Assembly (NCBI GenBank): GCA_024693225.1
Contig: JAILLI010000133.1
Span: 1 to 33,782 of the forward strand
Origin: Lachnospiraceae bacterium
GTDB taxonomy: Bacteria > Bacillota > Clostridia > Lachnospirales > Lachnospiraceae
Direction: 5' to 3'
Length of the DNA stretch: 33,782 nt
The notes beneath the pieces are model-generated. The model saw only the letters and a program-made list of their open reading frames with translations, was not told where the DNA came from and ran no database searches. Positions 1,367-9,428 of this stretch are shown here, piece after piece. Both the position numbers and the translations under genes were made by a program. How positions within the stretch are numbered: position 1 is the stretch's first letter; each line of letters opens with the position of its first letter.

Positions 1367-2899
1367 ATGAAAACAGACAGTAACATTTTATCCGATCAGG
1401 GCACCAAGATAATAAAGAGCGGCAGATTCTTCTATCTGACACTTTTCATATGTCTTGCCGTTTTTATCGGTGCCATCAGCCTGCTGATACTTGCCTTCAA
1501 TGAACTCATTTCCAGTCATGACAAGCAGTTGTCGGCCGAGATCTGCACCATAATGACAGAGAAGATGAACTCCTCCATAGAGTATATGACGGAGTCTGCC
1601 GACGAAATGGCAAAGCTTCTGTCATCGCAGGATTATTCCGGTCCCGAGGAGATATACGAGGCCCTTAAAAAGAACAGGGATGCCGGTTACTTAAGCGCCG
1701 GCTTCATAGACCAGTCCGGGAAAAAATATGCAACGGCTGAGGAAGCCCGTGAGTTTGAAAAATGGGAACTCCTCCATACAGCAGCCCTTGCAAATCCCGT
1801 GTCCATATCAGCACCCTACCGTTCATCGGTATACGGACAGCCTGTCATAACCATGTTCTCTATACTTAAGTACGGCAGGGGCCGTCACGGGTTCCTCTTT
1901 ACCACCTATAAGCTCGCGGACCTTCAAAAGGTGGCTGCTACCAATTCTCTGGACAACGATATAGAGATATGGCTCATGAATTCCGAATCTGCCAACTTCA
2001 TCCAGTGTGCCGGATCGGATGAACACGCAAACGGGAACTGGACCAATTCCTATCTGGCCATGGGCTCCATCAATGATGAAGATGTCCCTGTATATACCGA
2101 ATGGCTGGACCGTATCCGGCATCTGGAGGACGATATAGGCATAAGCTATTCCATCGGGGATGTCGTATACTCACAGCACTGCTCAAGGATACATTCCATG
2201 CCCGGATGGTATGTTGTGGTACGTATACCCGGAAACACCCTTTCGGCGACCATGCACACTTTCAGGAACTATGTCCTTTACTTCCTTGCGGTACTTCTTA
2301 TGGTCGTTGTAGTCCTTATAGCCAACATGTACAGGCTGTCAAAGAGAGACAATGAGATACTCGAGCGGCTGTCCACCCATGACCCGCTCACCGGTGTCCT
2401 TAACAGGCGTGCCTTTGACATAGCTGCCGAAAACCGGCTGGCCCGTGGCAAAGACTGTGCACTGATCTTCTTTGACCTTGATTACTTTAAGCAGGTAAAT
2501 GACAATTTCGGTCATAATACAGGTGATAAGTTCCTTATCTCCTTTTCGGAGGCCCTGAAAAAGAATTTCTCCGGATCCGGCATCATCTCTCGTTTCGGCG
2601 GTGATGAATTCGTGGTAATGACGGATATGACAAGCGTCGATGAAGTTACCGCAAAGATCTGCCGGACCAATGAGGACTTAAGTTCCTTCGAGCTGCCCGA
2701 CGAGAACGGGAAAAAGGTGGACTTTAACATCAGCTTTTCTTCCGGTGCGGCCCGTTTCCCCTATGATGCAAATGATCTGTCCACACTCAAAAAACGGGCG
2801 GATACCGCTCTTTATCAGGTAAAGGAGAGAGGCCGCAACGGGTATCTGTGGTACATGTACCTTCCGAAAGAATTGGCGGATACTTCCCATGATCACTGA
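1367..2899 (+). CDS. Membrane diguanylate cyclase with extracellular sensor domain
   Basis: 510 residues. Membrane segments lie at about 22-44 and 301-321 and flank an extracellular domain of roughly 255 residues, probably of the double Cache type. The cytosolic GGDEF domain starts at about 339 (DPLTGVLNRRAF), has the metal and substrate motif FFDLDYFKQVND at 368-379, and an intact GGDEF at 411-415. It should therefore make c-di-GMP from two GTP. The usual inhibitory RxxD motif before GGDEF is absent (positions -9 to -6 read SGSG), so product inhibition at that site is not expected. No EAL domain is present. The gene begins 5 bases after the binding lipoprotein and has no strong ribosome site of its own, which suggests translational coupling and a shared signalling job. 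The Cache assignment is by layout only. Confidence 0.9.
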   Translation: MKTDSNILSDQGTKIIKSGRFFYLTLFICLAVFIGAISLLILAFNELISSHDKQLSAEICTIMTEKMNSSIEYMTESADEMAKLLSSQDYSGPEEIYEALKKNRDAGYLSAGFIDQSGKKYATAEEAREFEKWELLHTAALANPVSISAPYRSSVYGQPVITMFSILKYGRGRHGFLFTTYKLADLQKVAATNSLDNDIEIWLMNSESANFIQCAGSDEHANGNWTNSYLAMGSINDEDVPVYTEWLDRIRHLEDDIGISYSIGDVVYSQHCSRIHSMPGWYVVVRIPGNTLSATMHTFRNYVLYFLAVLLMVVVVLIANMYRLSKRDNEILERLSTHDPLTGVLNRRAFDIAAENRLARGKDCALIFFDLDYFKQVNDNFGHNTGDKFLISFSEALKKNFSGSGIISRFGGDEFVVMTDMTSVDEVTAKICRTNEDLSSFELPDENGKKVDFNISFSSGAARFPYDANDLSTLKKRADTALYQVKERGRNGYLWYMYLPKELADTSHDH

Positions 2900-2976
2900 T
2901 CAACTTCTGTTACAAGATAAACTTTCCACAACCGGCTGATGTCGGATGGGGTTTTCTTGTTGGATGATAATAAACA

Positions 2977-3010
2977 GCCCGGCAGGAGATATCTCCGGCC
3001 GGGCCCTTGT
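2977..3010. terminator. Hairpin between convergent genes, likely terminator
   Basis: GCCCGGC at 2977-2983 pairs with GCCGGGC at 2998-3004 around an inner GGAGATATCTCC palindrome, making a long GC-rich stem. A modest T-rich stretch follows on the + strand and another on the - strand (TGTTTATTATC). It sits between the convergent GGDEF and DHH genes and could serve either; neither U-run is strong. Confidence 0.55.
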
Positions 3011-3027
3011 ATTTTATATCCTACTCT

Positions 3028-3942
3028 CTATGAATTTGCAAGCGTCTTAAGCTCTTCAAGCATCACGCAGGCATCCTCATAGGATGCGAACTGACAGGTT
3101 CCGACTTTCTCGTGTCCGCCACCGCCGTACTTAAGGCAGAGGCTTCCGACATCCAGGGTCGCCGTCCTGTTCAGGATGCTGTAACCAACCGCACAGGCAA
3201 GTCCCTGACCTCCCTTTCCGGGGGTCATCCATACGGATATGTTCTGGTCGGGATACATGCTGTAGATCATGAACCTGTTCCCGGTATATATGGTCTCGAC
3301 ACCGCGCAGATCCGTAACTATCAGATTGCCGTATACTTCCGTATTCTCCGTTACCATCTCGCGGAATTTTCTGGTCTGGTCCTCATATAATTCGATCCTC
3401 TCGACAACATCGGGCATGCTCAGTATCTCATCAGTTGTCTTCTCGCCGCAGGCAACGAGAAGTTCTTCCATGAGCTGGTAGTTACTGATCCTGAAATCGC
3501 GGAAACGTCCGAGGCCTGTCCTGGGATCCATCAGAAATCCGACGAGTATCCATCCCTTGGGGTTCTGTATCTCATCTATTGTAAGATTACCGCTGTCGAC
3601 CTTATCGACAGCCACCATAAGGTCATCAAACTGGGGGAACCTGTCCCTGCCCCCGTAATACTCATATATGACCCTTGCGCAGGAAGGCGCACTGCTGTCA
3701 CACTTTCCCTTGTATCTTCCCTCAAGTTCATTACGCTCTTCCTCACTTGAGTGATGGTCGAACCAGAGGCCGCAGCCTTCAACAAAAGGAACGTTTGCAA
3801 GACAGTCATCGCTTGTGATCTCCACCTGTCCGTCCTGCAGATCCTTGGGATGTGCAAACTTCCAGTGATCGATTATTCCCGCTTCAAGAAGCAGGGCTCC
3901 GCATGCCAGTCCGTCAAAATCAGATCTTGTAACAAGTCTCAT
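3028..3942 (-). CDS. DHH-family phosphoesterase
   Basis: 304 residues. The N-terminal DHH domain shows the metal-binding motifs DFDG at 8-11 and DHH at 62-64. The C-terminal DHHA1-type substrate-binding domain carries GGGGHEKVG at 273-281. Proteins with this layout hydrolyse phosphodiester or phosphoanhydride bonds with Mn2+: nanoRNases, cyclic dinucleotide or pApA phosphodiesterases and exopolyphosphatases. The substrate cannot be assigned from sequence, and no signal peptide or membrane segment is seen, so it is cytosolic. Its ATG overlaps the stop of the upstream sensor-GGDEF gene as ATGA, so the two are co-translated. A link to breakdown of a c-di-GMP product such as pGpG is tempting but is only inference. 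Confidence 0.85.
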   Translation of the reverse strand: MRLVTRSDFDGLACGALLLEAGIIDHWKFAHPKDLQDGQVEITSDDCLANVPFVEGCGLWFDHHSSEEERNELEGRYKGKCDSSAPSCARVIYEYYGGRDRFPQFDDLMVAVDKVDSGNLTIDEIQNPKGWILVGFLMDPRTGLGRFRDFRISNYQLMEELLVACGEKTTDEILSMPDVVERIELYEDQTRKFREMVTENTEVYGNLIVTDLRGVETIYTGNRFMIYSMYPDQNISVWMTPGKGGQGLACAVGYSILNRTATLDVGSLCLKYGGGGHEKVGTCQFASYEDACVMLEELKTLANS

Positions 3943-5849
3943 AGCCTTTTCTCCTTAATCATCTGTTTGTTCTCATACATGGCTGCATCCGCTCTCGCAA
4001 ATACATCCGCAACCTTATCATCTTTATCACGATCAAATATCCCGATGCCGCCGGCGATGGATACCCTCTCCTCCGGAGGCGGATCCTTGGCCGCGATCTC
4101 TTCCATCCTGGATATGACCTTCTTCATCAGCCTTTCACGATCCCGGTAATCATTATCCTTAAGAAGGATGACGAATTCATCACCTCCTATACGGAAGACG
4201 GGACTGCGTGAAAAAACATCACATAACATCGAACAGCAGTTGACTATATAAGCGTCACCCGCTTCATGTCCCAGATTGTCATTGACCTTCTTCAGATCAT
4301 TGATATCAAAGAGGCCTATACCGAATTCGATACGGGCACCTGACCGGATGATGGAATTGATCTCCGCCTCACGTGACGAATATGCCGCACGGTTCTTGAC
4401 TTTTGTCATCACATCCGTTTCGGTAAGCTCAACCAGCCTTTTGTTCAAAACCCTCAGGCTTATGTTCTGCCTGACCTTGGACATCATAACGTCGATCCTG
4501 GAAATGTACTCAAATAGATGGTTACCGTTTCCCACGATGTCAACATTATCGCAGAAGATCATATATCCGTAATTATCCATGACCTCGTGTATGGGCACGA
4601 ACACAAAGACCCTGTTCTTCTTATCCGGATCTATATAAGGGACCAGCTTTCTTGATTCGAACTCGGGAAAGTTCATGACCTTACCGTTTTCCATCGAATA
4701 TATGGCATTCATTATCCTGCTGTATCCCCGGGTCCGAAACTTCGCATTGATATTGGTCATGGCCTTTCGAAAGCCCGGCTCTATAACAACATGAAAGGAT
4801 TCACCGATAAAAGACTTGTCACTCGAAAAAGCCCGTCTCATGTTGGTTTCAAACTCTTCAAAGGTGACACTTGAGAGCATCTCACCCTCGACCATGGTAA
4901 CATTCCTCTCGAAAATGGTTGTCATCATCCGGTCGAAGAAAACGCTCTTCCCGTGCATGCGTCTTAAATAGTCAAGATCATGCAGGCAACTGCAGCCGCA
5001 GCTCTCACTCTGGAACATCTCACAGCCTATATATACCTCGCGGTTTCTCTTGTTGCCGTCCATGACATCGAGAAGGAGCCTTAAGGCATAAGCGCCCAGA
5101 TCGCCGAACCTCTGATCCACACTCGTTATGGACGGGCTGTATATCTCGGCAGTATAGTCATTGTCAAAACCGGTCACTATGGTGTCACTGGGGACCTCAT
5201 ATCCTATCTCTTCAAGAGCAAGGCACGCAGCGATCGCAATAGTGTCATTGGCACAGACAAAGGCATCCGGAAGTGGGACGCTCCTGTCCCCGTACTTTTC
5301 ATGTATATAATCAACGGTTTGCTTGGGTTCCCAGTGGCTGTAAAAAACCTCGATGCCATCGGTTGCGATATCATGATCCGTCATGACCTCGCAGAGGGTC
5401 TCAAGCCTGGTGTTAGAATCGTCGTTATTGGGATTACCCGCTATGAAGACCGGGTGTCTTACATCATGAACCTCAACCAGATGCGTGTACAGGCTTGTGG
5501 CACCTTCATAGTTGTCACTGCCGACAAAATAGGCATCCTTGCTCTTTCGTCCCGTCGATACTACAGGAACACCTGCCTCTTTGCATCTTCTGATGATATT
5601 CTCATAAACCCCTATATGATCTATGGCATTACCGAGGACCAGTACCCCGTCAAAATCCTCCATGTGGGGCAGATCGAATATGTTCAGTTCACCGATCTTC
5701 TGGGTCTCGTCATCCACGTAGGGCGGGAAACAGACAAACATATACAGATCAACGTCCAGCCCCTGCATACGTCTGACTACTCCCTTGGAATAGTCATGCA
5801 AAAGATCGAAGGCCCAGCCGCACGAAAAAAGTGCTATTTTCTTGGGCAT
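3939..5849 (-). CDS. Cytosolic LacI-type sensor fused to a diguanylate cyclase
   Basis: 636 residues. Residues 1-283 form a LacI/GalR-type periplasmic-binding fold (DGVLVLGNA at 67-75, DAFVCANDTIAIA near 195-207, TGFDNDYTAEIYSPSITSV at 226-244) but with no DNA-binding headpiece and no signal peptide. A Cys cluster SCGCSC follows at 283-288. Residues 300-450 are a middle region that may be GAF-like. A probable coiled linker at 455-476 leads to a GGDEF domain with LFDINDLKKVNDNLGH at 513-528 and an intact GGDEF at 555-559. No RxxD inhibitory site precedes it. The predicted role is c-di-GMP synthesis controlled by a small cytosolic ligand. GAGGTGA before the ATG fixes the start, and a promoter is visible at 5908-5936. 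It overlaps the DHH gene by four bases. Confidence 0.88.
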   Translation of the reverse strand: MPKKIALFSCGWAFDLLHDYSKGVVRRMQGLDVDLYMFVCFPPYVDDETQKIGELNIFDLPHMEDFDGVLVLGNAIDHIGVYENIIRRCKEAGVPVVSTGRKSKDAYFVGSDNYEGATSLYTHLVEVHDVRHPVFIAGNPNNDDSNTRLETLCEVMTDHDIATDGIEVFYSHWEPKQTVDYIHEKYGDRSVPLPDAFVCANDTIAIAACLALEEIGYEVPSDTIVTGFDNDYTAEIYSPSITSVDQRFGDLGAYALRLLLDVMDGNKRNREVYIGCEMFQSESCGCSCLHDLDYLRRMHGKSVFFDRMMTTIFERNVTMVEGEMLSSVTFEEFETNMRRAFSSDKSFIGESFHVVIEPGFRKAMTNINAKFRTRGYSRIMNAIYSMENGKVMNFPEFESRKLVPYIDPDKKNRVFVFVPIHEVMDNYGYMIFCDNVDIVGNGNHLFEYISRIDVMMSKVRQNISLRVLNKRLVELTETDVMTKVKNRAAYSSREAEINSIIRSGARIEFGIGLFDINDLKKVNDNLGHEAGDAYIVNCCSMLCDVFSRSPVFRIGGDEFVILLKDNDYRDRERLMKKVISRMEEIAAKDPPPEERVSIAGGIGIFDRDKDDKVADVFARADAAMYENKQMIKEKRL

Positions 5850-5936: not shown

Positions 5937-6860
5937 TTATCTGTCCCTGTTCACAAGGCTCCTTATAAGTTCCTTCAGCACCTGTCCCTTCACGCCCGCA
6001 CCCTGCGGAAGTTCTTCAAGCAGATCCACAGCCCTTTGGGATATGGCCGCAACATCCTCCACGGCCTTCTCATATCCCACAAGCGACACATATGTTGCCT
6101 TACCGTTCCGCTCATCGCTTCCGGCCGGCTTGCCAAGCGTCTTATCGTCTCCGGTAACATCAAGTATGTCATCCCTTATCTGGAAAGCCAGTCCAATATC
6201 GGATCCAATCTTCTCTACCCTGTCAAGATCTTCGGGGGAAGCTCCCGCAAGGGCCGCCCCGATCATCATGGATGATTCGATCATTGCCGCAGTCTTGTTC
6301 TCATGTATGAACCCGATCCTGTCCATAGTGATATCTTCTGCCGGCTGATCTTCGGCCTCAACGTCCGCCACCTGGCCTCCGATCATCCCGTAAATACCGG
6401 CCTTGTCCGCAAGTATCCTGAGTGACCGTATCACATTCCACGTAAGGACGGCATCATCTTCCTTTACAGAGTCAAAGGCCTTCATTGCCGTCTCGAAGGC
6501 ATAATTGAGAAGACCGTCACCTGCCAGTATACCCATGGCCTCGCCGAACTTCGCATGTGTACTTGGTTTGCCCCGCCGCAGCATATCGTTATCCATTGCG
6601 GGAAGATCATCGTGGCAGAGTGAATAGGTATGTATCATCTCAATGGCAGCCATGAAGGGATGGAGGATATCCTCCCTGCTACCTCCGAACATCCTGTATA
6701 CTTCCTGCATGAGTATGGGCCGAAGCCTCTTTCCGCCCACATGTATGCTGTAGTTCATGGCCTCCCTGACAGTCCTTGCAAAGCCCGTCTCTTCGGGAAG
6801 AAAGCCCTCTATTATGGCATCTGTCTCTTTTACTCTTTCTGCGATAATGTCCTTTATCAA
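5937..6860 (-). CDS. ispA: Farnesyl diphosphate synthase-type polyprenyl synthetase
   Basis: 307 residues, the normal length for the bacterial short-chain enzyme. GGKRLRP at 42-48 binds diphosphate, the first Asp-rich motif DDLPAMDND is at 84-92 and the second, DDILD, at 230-234. The residues before the first motif (HTYSLCH) are those usual in IspA-type geranyl/farnesyl diphosphate synthases, which condense IPP with DMAPP/GPP in the cytosol to supply undecaprenyl and other polyprenyl carriers. The start is TTG at 6860, with GGGAGA a few bases upstream; it overlaps the upstream stop as TTGA. xseB and dxs, frequent ispA neighbours, are absent; the gene instead ends the radical SAM operon. The exact chain length of the product is inferred. 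Confidence 0.9.
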   Translation of the reverse strand: MIKDIIAERVKETDAIIEGFLPEETGFARTVREAMNYSIHVGGKRLRPILMQEVYRMFGGSREDILHPFMAAIEMIHTYSLCHDDLPAMDNDMLRRGKPSTHAKFGEAMGILAGDGLLNYAFETAMKAFDSVKEDDAVLTWNVIRSLRILADKAGIYGMIGGQVADVEAEDQPAEDITMDRIGFIHENKTAAMIESSMMIGAALAGASPEDLDRVEKIGSDIGLAFQIRDDILDVTGDDKTLGKPAGSDERNGKATYVSLVGYEKAVEDVAAISQRAVDLLEELPQGAGVKGQVLKELIRSLVNRDR

Positions 6861-8050
6861 ATCTTTTCTCCCGTGGCTTTTGCCAGTGCGCGAAGCTTAA
6901 GGTTGGTGTTATAGAAATCCTTCATGGTGCAGCCTGCCCTTCCGCCGCCCGCACAGGCACAGGCGCAGGCACAGGCACATGAACTGTGGGCGCAGGAACT
7001 GTGATGGGAGCGGCTGCTCCTTGAAGGTGCATGATAATGAGGGTTTGGAACACTTACGGAATTGACCCTGATGAAGACATTGGGGTCCATACCGTATCTG
7101 TATTCACCGTTCTTGGTAAATGCCGAAGCCGCCTTCTCCTCCTTCTTCAGCTGTTCATCGGTTATGGTCTCCTCGCTCTTTACGAGGGATTTGCCGCAGA
7201 ACTCGCAGAATTTTGACCCTTCTTTACGGGGAGCCCCGCATCCCGGGCAGGAATCGAAATAAGTTATCTTGGTACGTGTTGTCTTGGTAATGGTCGGACT
7301 GTTCCCTTTGAAGCCGCGGTTGAAAAGATAGCCGAGAAGGACCGGGATCACGAAAAATCCTGCTGTTGTCATGAAGCAGACCAGTCCTCCTATGATCTCA
7401 GCTATGGTATCGCTGAGCCCGCCGCCTTCTTCCTCTTCAATGGTCTTTGAAAGATCGAAACCGTATGCATCATTGGGATAAGTCATGGTCACTGTAAACT
7501 TATCGCCCTTTGAAAGGGATGTCTCCCAGACATTATAGGCTCCGTCCATGAGGCATTCGGGGGTAAAGGATACCGCTTTTTCATTATTCCACTTTATAAC
7601 GAGCTTTTCGACCCTGATATCGTCAAACCATCCGGGGGTAAAGGAGTATACCGTCTCACCCTCTTTCAGCTTGTTGACCTGGTACATATAATCCTGGACG
7701 ATAAGGAAATCAACGCTGGCCACTTCGCCCTCATAATATTCCCTGTCCAGATATACCTCCGCATAGTTTCCCGACAGGTTGATGTGATCAACCGTCCCGC
7801 TCATTCCCTGTGCCGATACCACATGACTGTTGGGTATACCTATCTTCATCCAGGAAAGGGGGCCGATCCCCGATCCAGAATCAAGGACCTTCCAGTCTAT
7901 ATGGTAATTCAGGTTAAGGGTCGCATCATCATTTACGTCAACGGTGATGGTATAGTTCAATATATCGTCCGTATCGGCCATGACCGGAGTGGCAAAAAGG
8001 AGCAGGCCGACAAGGAGTGTGAAAAAGAATGCCGTGATCTTATTTCTCAT
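6857..8050 (-). CDS. Membrane protein with zinc ribbon and Cys-Ala repeat tail; candidate radical SAM substrate
   Basis: 397 residues, not assigned to a named family with confidence. Residues 1-25 are a signal peptide (VMA before Asp26). Residues 26-215 form a beta-rich extracytoplasmic domain, loosely like DUF2207. A membrane segment lies at about 219-243. A zinc ribbon follows with Cys 268, 271, 282 and 285 (CPGC ... CEFC). The tail at 338-374 is rich in His, Ser and Cys: HSSCA occurs twice in tandem at 350-359, Cys and Ala alternate from 358 to 367, then GGGRAGC ends at Cys374. With a cleaved N-terminal signal and one later span, the ribbon and tail should be cytosolic. The gene overlaps the radical SAM gene by 11 bases and ispA by 4, so all three are co-translated. 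I propose it is modified by the radical SAM enzyme; that is inference. Confidence 0.8.
   Translation of the reverse strand: MRNKITAFFFTLLVGLLLFATPVMADTDDILNYTITVDVNDDATLNLNYHIDWKVLDSGSGIGPLSWMKIGIPNSHVVSAQGMSGTVDHINLSGNYAEVYLDREYYEGEVASVDFLIVQDYMYQVNKLKEGETVYSFTPGWFDDIRVEKLVIKWNNEKAVSFTPECLMDGAYNVWETSLSKGDKFTVTMTYPNDAYGFDLSKTIEEEEGGGLSDTIAEIIGGLVCFMTTAGFFVIPVLLGYLFNRGFKGNSPTITKTTRTKITYFDSCPGCGAPRKEGSKFCEFCGKSLVKSEETITDEQLKKEEKAASAFTKNGEYRYGMDPNVFIRVNSVSVPNPHYHAPSRSSRSHHSSCAHSSCACACACACAGGGRAGCTMKDFYNTNLKLRALAKATGEKI
6929..6994 (-). other. Cys-Ala repeat segment of the candidate substrate (Cys353-Cys374)
   Basis: This stretch encodes seven Cys: 353, 358, 360, 362, 364, 366 and 374. The five central ones alternate strictly with Ala. 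The codons vary among TGT/TGC and GCC/GCG, so the repeat is kept at protein level and is not a pure DNA slippage tract. Regular small-residue/Cys spacing is the style of thioether-forming radical SAM substrates. Metal binding by the Cys is the main alternative. Confidence 0.75.
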
Positions 8051-9428
8051 AAGAACCTCCTTCCTTCCCGGTCCTTAAAGGACAGGTTCCCGTCATCATT
8101 GCCGAGAAGTATCTTCTGTTTGCGCATTTGCCGCTGTACCATATCTTTTCCCAGTCCTCGTTCAGGAAATTCCCCAGGTTGCCGTCGGTCAGCCAGCTCT
8201 GGCAGGGTACCACATTCCCGCCCGGGCTTATTGCCATATTGGATAGGCAGGCCCCGCATGTGGGCATGTTAAGGCCGCATTCTTCAAAGAATTCCTGATC
8301 TATCCAGCCGGGAGAAGTAAAGCTTATCTCCATCCCGTTCGCATATGTATAATCAACAGCCTCCTTCAGTATGCCCCGGATCTCGTCAGGGCCAAGCTGC
8401 AGGCTTTCAGATTGAGAAAGAGCTGCATTTCCCGTTGTGATAAGACCGGAACATGTAACATATGTCACTCCCAGATCATGCAGAAATCTGAGCGTTTCCG
8501 TATAATCACGGTTCCTGGTACACAAGGGAGTATTGACGGAGATGTTGAGGCCCGCCTCAAGGGCATTTTTGATCCCGGCGAGGGTCTGTCCATACATCTG
8601 TGCCCCGACAAGCTCATTGTGTACTGCCTCGTCATGTGAGTAGAATGTTATCTGTATGCTGTCAAGGGAGGCATCAAAAAGGGCTTTGCAGTATTCCTTT
8701 GTAAGCTTTATCCCGTTGGTGTTGAGCCTGGTCACAAACCACTTTGCATGGTCTATGAGCTCAATAAGATCTTCTCTCATGGTTGGCTCGCCTCCCGTGA
8801 AGGTCACCTGTGGGATGCAGACCTTACGGCACTTGTCTATTATATCTTTCCATTCCTGTGTGGAAAGCTCCTCTTCATCTGCCATCTCCTGTCCCGCTGC
8901 ATAGCAGTGGATACACTTCTGATTGCAGTGCCATCCTCCCCCCTTTGTCATTGCGGATACCATCAGGTCCATCCTGTGGGGAGCACGCATGTGATCGGCA
9001 TAGCGGCCGATGTCCATATACTCTATCTCCTCATCCGGAACCTCCCCGTATGCGATCTGCTTAAAGGTGTTCATTATCCTGAATATGTCTTTTCTGAGAA
9101 TGAACTTTGGTATCATCCTGTATACGCTCCTTGCACGTATCAGGGTACTGTCAACTATCTTTTTAGTATCCTCGTCGGTTATGGGACGCCCGTGATACTC
9201 GTTTATGGCATCTATCAGCATGGACAGCAGTACTGCCCACGAAACATTTATGGGGATCACATCCTGTCCGTTCAGTATGACTATACTTCCCACGGGCTCC
9301 GGACCGTCGTACTTTGGCGGCACCATATGGATCCTGACTACACCGGGGCCTTCGGGATTAAGGGTCGTATGCTTGACCTCCCCAAGGTTCTCCTTGATGT
9401 AATTGACTACTCTTTTGGGATTTTTCAT
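8040..9428 (-). CDS. Radical SAM/SPASM protein, candidate peptide-modifying maturase
   Basis: 462 residues. The radical SAM core begins with CNQKCIHC (Cys 168, 172, 175), the CX3CX2C ligand set for the 4Fe-4S cluster that cleaves S-adenosylmethionine, followed by GGEP at 212-215. The C-terminus is SPASM-like, with Cys 384, 391, 394, 409, 435 and 449 around SPGGNVVPCQSW and LGNF, able to hold auxiliary clusters. Such proteins usually modify ribosomal peptides or mature enzymes. The long N-terminus has a region at about 46-100 that could be a PqqD-like peptide-binding wing, which is tentative. Its last 11 bases overlap the Cys-repeat membrane protein gene, the likely substrate. AAGGAGA eight bases before ATG 9428 sets the start. 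An extended -10 promoter is at 9511-9519. Confidence 0.88.
   Translation of the reverse strand: MKNPKRVVNYIKENLGEVKHTTLNPEGPGVVRIHMVPPKYDGPEPVGSIVILNGQDVIPINVSWAVLLSMLIDAINEYHGRPITDEDTKKIVDSTLIRARSVYRMIPKFILRKDIFRIMNTFKQIAYGEVPDEEIEYMDIGRYADHMRAPHRMDLMVSAMTKGGGWHCNQKCIHCYAAGQEMADEEELSTQEWKDIIDKCRKVCIPQVTFTGGEPTMREDLIELIDHAKWFVTRLNTNGIKLTKEYCKALFDASLDSIQITFYSHDEAVHNELVGAQMYGQTLAGIKNALEAGLNISVNTPLCTRNRDYTETLRFLHDLGVTYVTCSGLITTGNAALSQSESLQLGPDEIRGILKEAVDYTYANGMEISFTSPGWIDQEFFEECGLNMPTCGACLSNMAISPGGNVVPCQSWLTDGNLGNFLNEDWEKIWYSGKCANRRYFSAMMTGTCPLRTGKEGGSYEK

Follow-up and report, generated by a model that had tools for sequence, protein, structure and literature searches.

The locus and its two gene products

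The stretch analysed here (the window, 33,782 nt) comes from a Lachnospiraceae bacterium (GCA_024693225.1, contig JAILLI010000133.1). It carries on its minus strand a conserved gene pair, in which the gene for a radical S-adenosylmethionine (SAM) enzyme (P0002) is followed by that for a membrane protein with a Cys-Ala tail (P0001), the two overlapping by 11 bases at 8040-8050 (Table 1). At its 3' end the membrane-protein gene shares 4 bases with a TTG-started prenyl-synthase frame. The gene coordinates and overlap given by a first-pass annotation of this DNA were found again, as were the CX3CX2C motif, the product length of 397 residues and the five Cys-Ala units with flanking cysteines. The window assembly is 2.68 Mb in size (85.1% complete, 6.76% contamination), and the pair was also present, with the same array, in a same-genus genome that is 99% complete.

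The enzyme matched the Pfam families Radical_SAM (2.4e-20) and SPASM (PF13186, 5.3e-6), the latter being matched by 27/27 members of the enzyme family (E up to 0.1). In the auxiliary-cluster region, Cys391, Cys409 and Cys449 are invariant in the 27 aligned members, and Cys394 is kept in 21 of them. The second-cluster motif CX2CX5CX3C was seen in none of the 27 sequences of the window's group, compared with 9/10 and 4/4 rows of the deeper f134 and f93 groups described below. Thus the earlier description of the enzyme as SPASM-like holds for the Pfam match, but the alignment indicates a one-cluster (Twitch-like) form. A further cysteine, Cys303 (window 8520-8522), lies outside both cluster regions and is invariant in 27/27 members, with Val in its place in the divergent sequences L231-L233.

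An AlphaFold2 model of the enzyme (mean pLDDT 91.1) was compared with solved structures, and SkfB, the thioether-forming maturase of the sporulation killing factor, was the closest solved relative by both sequence and fold. SkfB and SuiB ranked above EpeE, and TigE was among the fold matches listed; as this listing gives the Foldseek top chains, the absence of a family from it carries no weight. The structural alignment with SkfB begins at model residue 31. The N-terminal part resembles a RiPP (ribosomally synthesized and post-translationally modified peptide) recognition element by fold order only (DSSP on the model), and sequence searches with it gave no useful match. The anti-phage viperin model pVip of PADLOC covers the radical SAM core only (1.8e-16, residues 167-304), and this reading was set aside because outside that core the enzyme aligns with peptide maturases.

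The membrane protein is predicted to consist of a signal segment, an outer domain, a single membrane helix and then the tail, a topology that would place the Cys-Ala tail in the cytosol. The signal peptide noted earlier is part of this prediction; the zinc ribbon fell just below the Pfam cut-off (22.5 against 25 bits). A CxxC...CxxC pattern between helix and tail was found in 76 of 121 tail proteins, and the length of such proteins ranged from 307 to 463 residues among 46 representatives. The C-terminal sequence of P0001 is SSCAHSSCACACACACAGGGRAGCTMKDFYNT..., with the five Cys-Ala units at residues 358-367 and further cysteines on both flanks. DUF2207 (PF09972, cut-off 24.4 bits) gave weak matches to 13 of the 46 representatives (E up to 0.1, best 1.7e-4); P0001 had no match to it. 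Two of the genome-wide PF09972 matches are tail proteins, at 22 and 21.1 bits and so below the cut-off.

Table 1 Features of the gene pair in the window
Feature	Position	Strand	Basis or remark
Radical SAM enzyme gene, 462 aa	8040-9428	minus	Pfam, AlphaFold2 model, closest solved relative SkfB
Enzyme N-terminal part, residues 1-130, strands then helices	9039-9428	minus	DSSP order on model
CX3CX2C cluster motif (C168, C172, C175)	8904-8927	minus	Kept in 27/27 aligned members
Auxiliary-cluster region, C391/C394/C409/C449	8082-8258	minus	Member alignment and alignment with SkfB
Membrane-protein gene with Cys-Ala tail, 397 aa	6857-8050	minus	Conserved beside enzyme gene
Extracytoplasmic beta-sandwich, residues 28-192	7475-7969	minus	Predicted
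Membrane helix, residues 211-244	7319-7420	minus	Predicted
Zinc ribbon, residues 268-289	7184-7249	minus	Pfam match below cut-off
Tail CAHSSCACACACACAGGGRAGC, residues 353-374, probable substrate	6929-6994	minus	Conserved repeat in tail proteins
KDFY motif 3' of tail, residues 377-380	6911-6922	minus	Possible recognition element; conserved in enzyme-selected genomes

Association of the enzyme with the Cys-Ala tail

Homologues of the enzyme (E <= 1e-40) and of the membrane protein (E <= 1e-5) were searched for in 299 genomes of the family. The enzyme was present in 24, the window's included, and a tail-bearing gene adjoined it in 24/24; as this set was chosen by the enzyme, it is free of selection for the tail. 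The membrane protein was matched in 25 genomes, namely all 24 with the enzyme and G082 (E 8.6e-8), where it is tail-less and the fetched stretch has no P0002 homologue (E <= 1). That stretch (L052, plus strand) holds the tail-less outer-domain relative at 1366-2211 and then, at 2392-3120, an unrelated gene, without homology to P0002 at E <= 1, whose product contains a CX6CX2C-like motif (WRGCHRYSEGCKFCY).

All 24 enzyme-selected genomes encode CACACACA-(GG or SS)-GRAGC-(S/T)-x-K-(D/E)-F-(Y/F), the KDFY positions being K in 24, D in 23 and E in one, F in 24, and Y in 17 and F in seven. The tail is written in 24 different codon strings, and DNA coding for three units (CACACA) occurs in the 2.68-Mb assembly at this locus only. 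This uniqueness, together with conservation in 24/24 genomes through 24 different codon strings, argues that the tail is not a chance sequence. The same three-unit pattern was found in 57/299 family genomes, among them all 24 with the system; in the 33 others, none of the 21 loci examined (first match) carried a GRAGC tail there.

The converse search started from the tail, using a degenerate DNA pattern for CACACA..GRAGC in genome contigs, and yielded at least 118 stretches (up to 8 kb each) holding at least 120 tails. For 98 of the 120 tails listed, the same stretch encodes a homologue of the enzyme (over 100 bits), and searching the other 22 genomes whole revealed the enzyme in 18 more, with a tail beside it in 14, which gives 116/120. 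Tails lacking the enzyme gene, which the first-pass annotation had said would count against a coupling if common, thus amounted to four of those listed: L091, L145 and L150 run off a contig end, and L085 is a 5'-truncated gene. The coupling that it proposed is therefore borne out from both directions. The two sets overlap, since the same contigs appear in both lists. The L085 genome, a 1.7-Mb metagenome-assembled genome (MAG), had no enzyme match, and its tail gene (3631-4446, minus strand), which lacks the signal-peptide part and stands beside a large repeat-containing surface-type gene, is either a remnant or an assembly junction.

The pair occurs in many Clostridia-type genomes, largely gut and rumen MAGs. 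Two named isolates also have it: Gemmiger formicilis ATCC 27749 (L074/L220) and Hungatella hathewayi WAL-18680 (L133/L221). Most genomes are draft assemblies with MAG taxonomy as titled, and Eggerthellaceae and a few other labels may reflect misbinning or transfer. By coordinates, four stretches (L065, L094, L149 and L168) have the tail gene first and the enzyme gene downstream of it; five further rows labelled 'down' are overlaps of stop-to-stop frames. In L058, L089, L142 and L146, 690-791 bases separate the enzyme from a short frame with the tail, probably owing to frame breaks in draft assemblies. One enzyme gene is accompanied by two tail-bearing membrane genes in L064, L141, L208 and L225. 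In L064 (2004-3278, 4828-6117) the second is divergent and the two outer domains are 59% identical; in L141 (3251-5851) it is 1281 bases from the enzyme.

Deeper lineages were covered by two further searches. At class level (27-row enzyme alignment A1, 391 genomes, E <= 1e-60), the enzyme was found in ten genomes, the window's included. A tail was present in seven, of which L230 is cut inside it and L225 has the two tail genes mentioned above; the contigs of L228 and L231 end before any tail, the L231 enzyme frame also having an internal stop. In L232 (1259-1525, minus strand), a single-contig genome, an intact enzyme is beside a membrane gene broken after ~89 codons. At phylum level (398 genomes, cut-off 1e-50), 14 matches were obtained beyond the window's own. 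In ten of them (L239-L248, families f134 and f196) the membrane protein next to the enzyme shares the outer domain of the window protein (hmm 4.2e-26 to 8.4e-32). Nine of these carry tails such as GCACVSCACACVSCACACACAGGGGAGC, that of L248 being cut at the stretch end, and L244 has an assembly gap at this place. In the remaining four (L249-L252, families f93 and f98) it adjoins a different membrane protein of 474-490 residues, which was not matched by the outer-domain model at E <= 1 or by Pfam at 0.01. This carrier ends in SSCACACACACASSGGCT or GGSCACACACACAGGGGCT at the very C-terminus, a Cys-Ala ending also given as CACACACACASSGGCT. Its last residues in L249-L252 are CACACACACA(SS/GG)GGCT, and the gene stands directly before the radical SAM/SPASM gene; L249-L251 have one more gene, of 267-308 codons, after these.

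The f93 enzyme P0003 shares 34% identity with the window enzyme over 325 residues. Support in the enzyme tree was full or good for the f134 and f93 groups and for the divergent one (L231-L233), and 83/80 for the window's group; five genomes searched in the class of G707 gave only the three known matches. Thus the pairing survives both deep divergence of the enzyme and exchange of the carrier, and the evidence is compatible with a system spanning at least three radical SAM lineages and two kinds of carrier protein.

Other genes showed no comparable recurrence. The 118 stretches contain 826 open reading frames (ORFs), of which the membrane gene (in 87 stretches) and the enzyme (in 78) were the only ones to recur frequently; no third gene, protease and exporter included, did so widely, in line with the earlier remark that neither accompanies the pair. 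Two ORF clusters of 16 stretches each are, by the coordinates of one example each, opposite-strand frames over the pair, and all other clusters were in nine stretches or fewer. The prenyl-synthase, GGDEF and DHH genes downstream of the pair each recur in five stretches; the GGDEF gene of the window (3939-5849, minus strand) encodes a periplasmic-binding/LacI-type sensor fused to GGDEF.

The conserved tail unit and its probable modification

To define the conserved unit, residues were counted in 121 distinct tail proteins, with close relatives kept in the set and f134-type tails left out. Upstream of GRAGC, Cys is followed by Ala in 824/850 cases (Val 22, Phe 3, Gly 1). The last three units are fixed by the search pattern; therefore the count was repeated without them, and Ala still follows 461 of 487 cysteines, with the same exceptions. 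The residue preceding these 487 cysteines is Ser (226), Ala (203), Gly (51), His (6) or Thr (1), and the distance from one tail Cys to the next is 2 (559), 4 (94), 5 (68) or 3 (8). Position +1 is thus nearly fixed, whereas C, S, G, H and R all occur at +2, and A, S, G, V, C and H at +3. In f134-type tails Val also follows Cys, and Tyr or His is found at the first unit. On these counts the conserved object is the Cys-Ala dipeptide and not the spacing, the conservation of which had been put forward earlier as a check. A fixed dipeptide with variable spacing suggests that Cys reacts with the residue next to it.

As the enzyme consistently stands beside a Cys-Ala-tailed protein, it probably alters the tail chemically, and we regard the tail as very probably its substrate. 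On balance, we favour reading the pair as a maturase and a resident membrane-protein substrate, in which Cys sulphur is joined to the backbone and the tail made rigid; that the product is a thioether is, by a small margin, our expectation. The enzyme would bind the cytosolic C-terminus, for which the GRAGC..KDFY stretch is the likely handle in the window's group, the two deeper groups having different sequences there. Unit by unit, it would then take a hydrogen and link each Cys sulphur to a backbone carbon. If the sulphur is joined to the next Ala, as we tentatively suggest, the acceptor would most likely be its alpha carbon, giving a six-membered thiomorpholinone per Cys-Ala unit. What the Val, Phe and Gly seen at +1 all share with Ala is the backbone alpha carbon and not any carbon of the side chain, which agrees with such an acceptor. 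The outcome would be a rigid tail with few free thiols, on a protein that stays in the membrane with its domain outside, one helix, and the modified tail inside. The fullest version, in which every unit of the cytosolic tail becomes a thiomorpholinone and a widespread two-gene system builds a poly-heterocyclic arm that works in the cell envelope, is more speculative still. The earlier proposal that a cellular protein, and not a secreted peptide, is modified agrees with the membrane-anchored architecture and predicted cytosolic tail; the modification itself is what we infer.

The most serious alternative, although we consider it rather unlikely, is that the enzyme acts on the tail but makes a different product, such as a longer-range thioether (for example from Cys to the third residue on), a C-C bond, or an oxidized or decarboxylated Cys. 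Radical SAM/SPASM enzymes yield many product types, and sactipeptide rings from i to i+3 or longer are known, but the variable +2 and +3 residues beside a nearly fixed +1 do not suit a longer ring. There is only a slight chance that the tail is an unmodified metal or redox arm (metallothionein-like CXC), with the enzyme acting elsewhere or drawing iron-sulphur or electrons from it. CXC arrays are binders of thiophilic metals, and the zinc-ribbon-like pattern is nearby in the 76 tail proteins noted above; yet this would explain neither the enzyme-tail association in nearly all cases tested nor the Ala after even isolated cysteines. Equally improbable is epimerization of each Ala, as PoyD-type or EpeE-type epimerases invert residues in peptides, to give an alternating L-Cys/D-Ala strand with free thiols, since EpeE ranked below SkfB and SuiB, Cys303 is replaced by Val in L231-L233, and the conserved Cys would be left unexplained. 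Formylglycine formation was also considered and rejected, the sulfatase-type motif being missing from the tail.

As to the role of the tail, our guess is a docking or sensing element in place of the Gly/Ser tail of DUF2207 proteins. What is new here is that a radical SAM enzyme of peptide-maturase type is partnered with a resident membrane protein: the strongly conserved pair involves a protein that, by prediction, stays in place, and to our knowledge radical SAM maturases of Cys-rich peptides act almost only on exported natural products. No report of a Cys-Ala tail with a radical SAM enzyme was found in the titles and abstracts listed by searches of an open-licence library. If the proposal is true, a resident membrane protein would carry a permanent modification of a new kind. 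Repeated Cys-Ala is, in addition, a clean substrate motif on which enzyme chemistry can be tested, and the pair offers a way into DUF2207-like envelope proteins.

Comparison with known systems

None of the best 25 of 69 NCBIfam families reached its cut-off with the window enzyme. By family name, TIGR04133/TIGR04134 is similar in coupling a radical SAM/SPASM protein with an envelope-anchored putative lipoprotein, but TIGR04133 scored 79.6 bits against a cut-off of 425. The ACGX system mentioned in the first-pass annotation does exist in NCBIfam as TIGR04340, a radical SAM/SPASM family named for a Cys-containing repeat, but it was absent from those best 25 families, and P0003 reached 63.7 of the 400 bits needed. 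QhpD, also a radical SAM/SPASM enzyme, forms thioethers in a protein subunit and not in a free peptide; that subunit differs in belonging to a soluble, exported dehydrogenase.

On the carrier side, DUF2207 proteins are described in PMC10457818 as having an outer N-terminal domain, a membrane segment and a low-complexity intracellular C-terminus. This is also the predicted layout of the tail proteins, some of which gave the weak PF09972 matches noted above. The three DUF2207 proteins above cut-off (in 3/24 system genomes) differ in their Gly/Ser tails: over the final 150 residues two have no Cys and the third has one. Their fetched stretches contain no homologue of the enzyme.

On the enzyme side, the sactipeptide and ranthipeptide systems have a CX3CX2C maturase with a SPASM/Twitch region, as in the window, and SuiB (a C-C peptide cyclase) and CteB are also among the closest known enzymes. 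In those systems the substrate is a small leader-core precursor peptide instead of a membrane protein, and the window pair differs again in that no protease or exporter recurs widely around it in the 118 stretches. SkfB is the nearest case, with a radical SAM and a Twitch/SPASM part, an extra N-terminal domain and a Cys-bearing substrate encoded adjacently. Its first two auxiliary-region cysteines, taken as C333 and C351 of PMC6231123, align with Cys391 and Cys409 of the window enzyme at the same distance of 18, and that paper describes SkfB as a sactisynthase, a class forming sulphur-to-alpha-carbon bonds. Its equivalog TIGR04403 (cut-off 300 bits) gave 57.3 and 95.2 bits with two relatives; at 1e-20 it matched 2/27 members, P0002 not among them. 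The candidate substrate in the window differs from that of SkfB in being an integral membrane protein with many identical Cys-Ala units and a C-terminal substrate region, around which no leader-processing or export genes recur.

Two peptide systems are also among the closest known. In TvgA/TvgB, according to PMC9062424, one radical SAM enzyme acts repeatedly on a TVGG repeat to give cyclopropylglycine. The likeness is a single enzyme making many turns on a short repeat, and TigE, a relative, is among the fold matches noted above; the differences are a separate precursor peptide, further enzyme and transporter genes, and a repeat without Cys. In the enteropeptins, the thiomorpholine arises from a thioether between neighbours with the residue before Cys as acceptor (PMC12395415). 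This is a single ring in a small antibiotic peptide, and its acceptor precedes the Cys instead of following it, but it shows that a neighbour-to-neighbour thioether can form.

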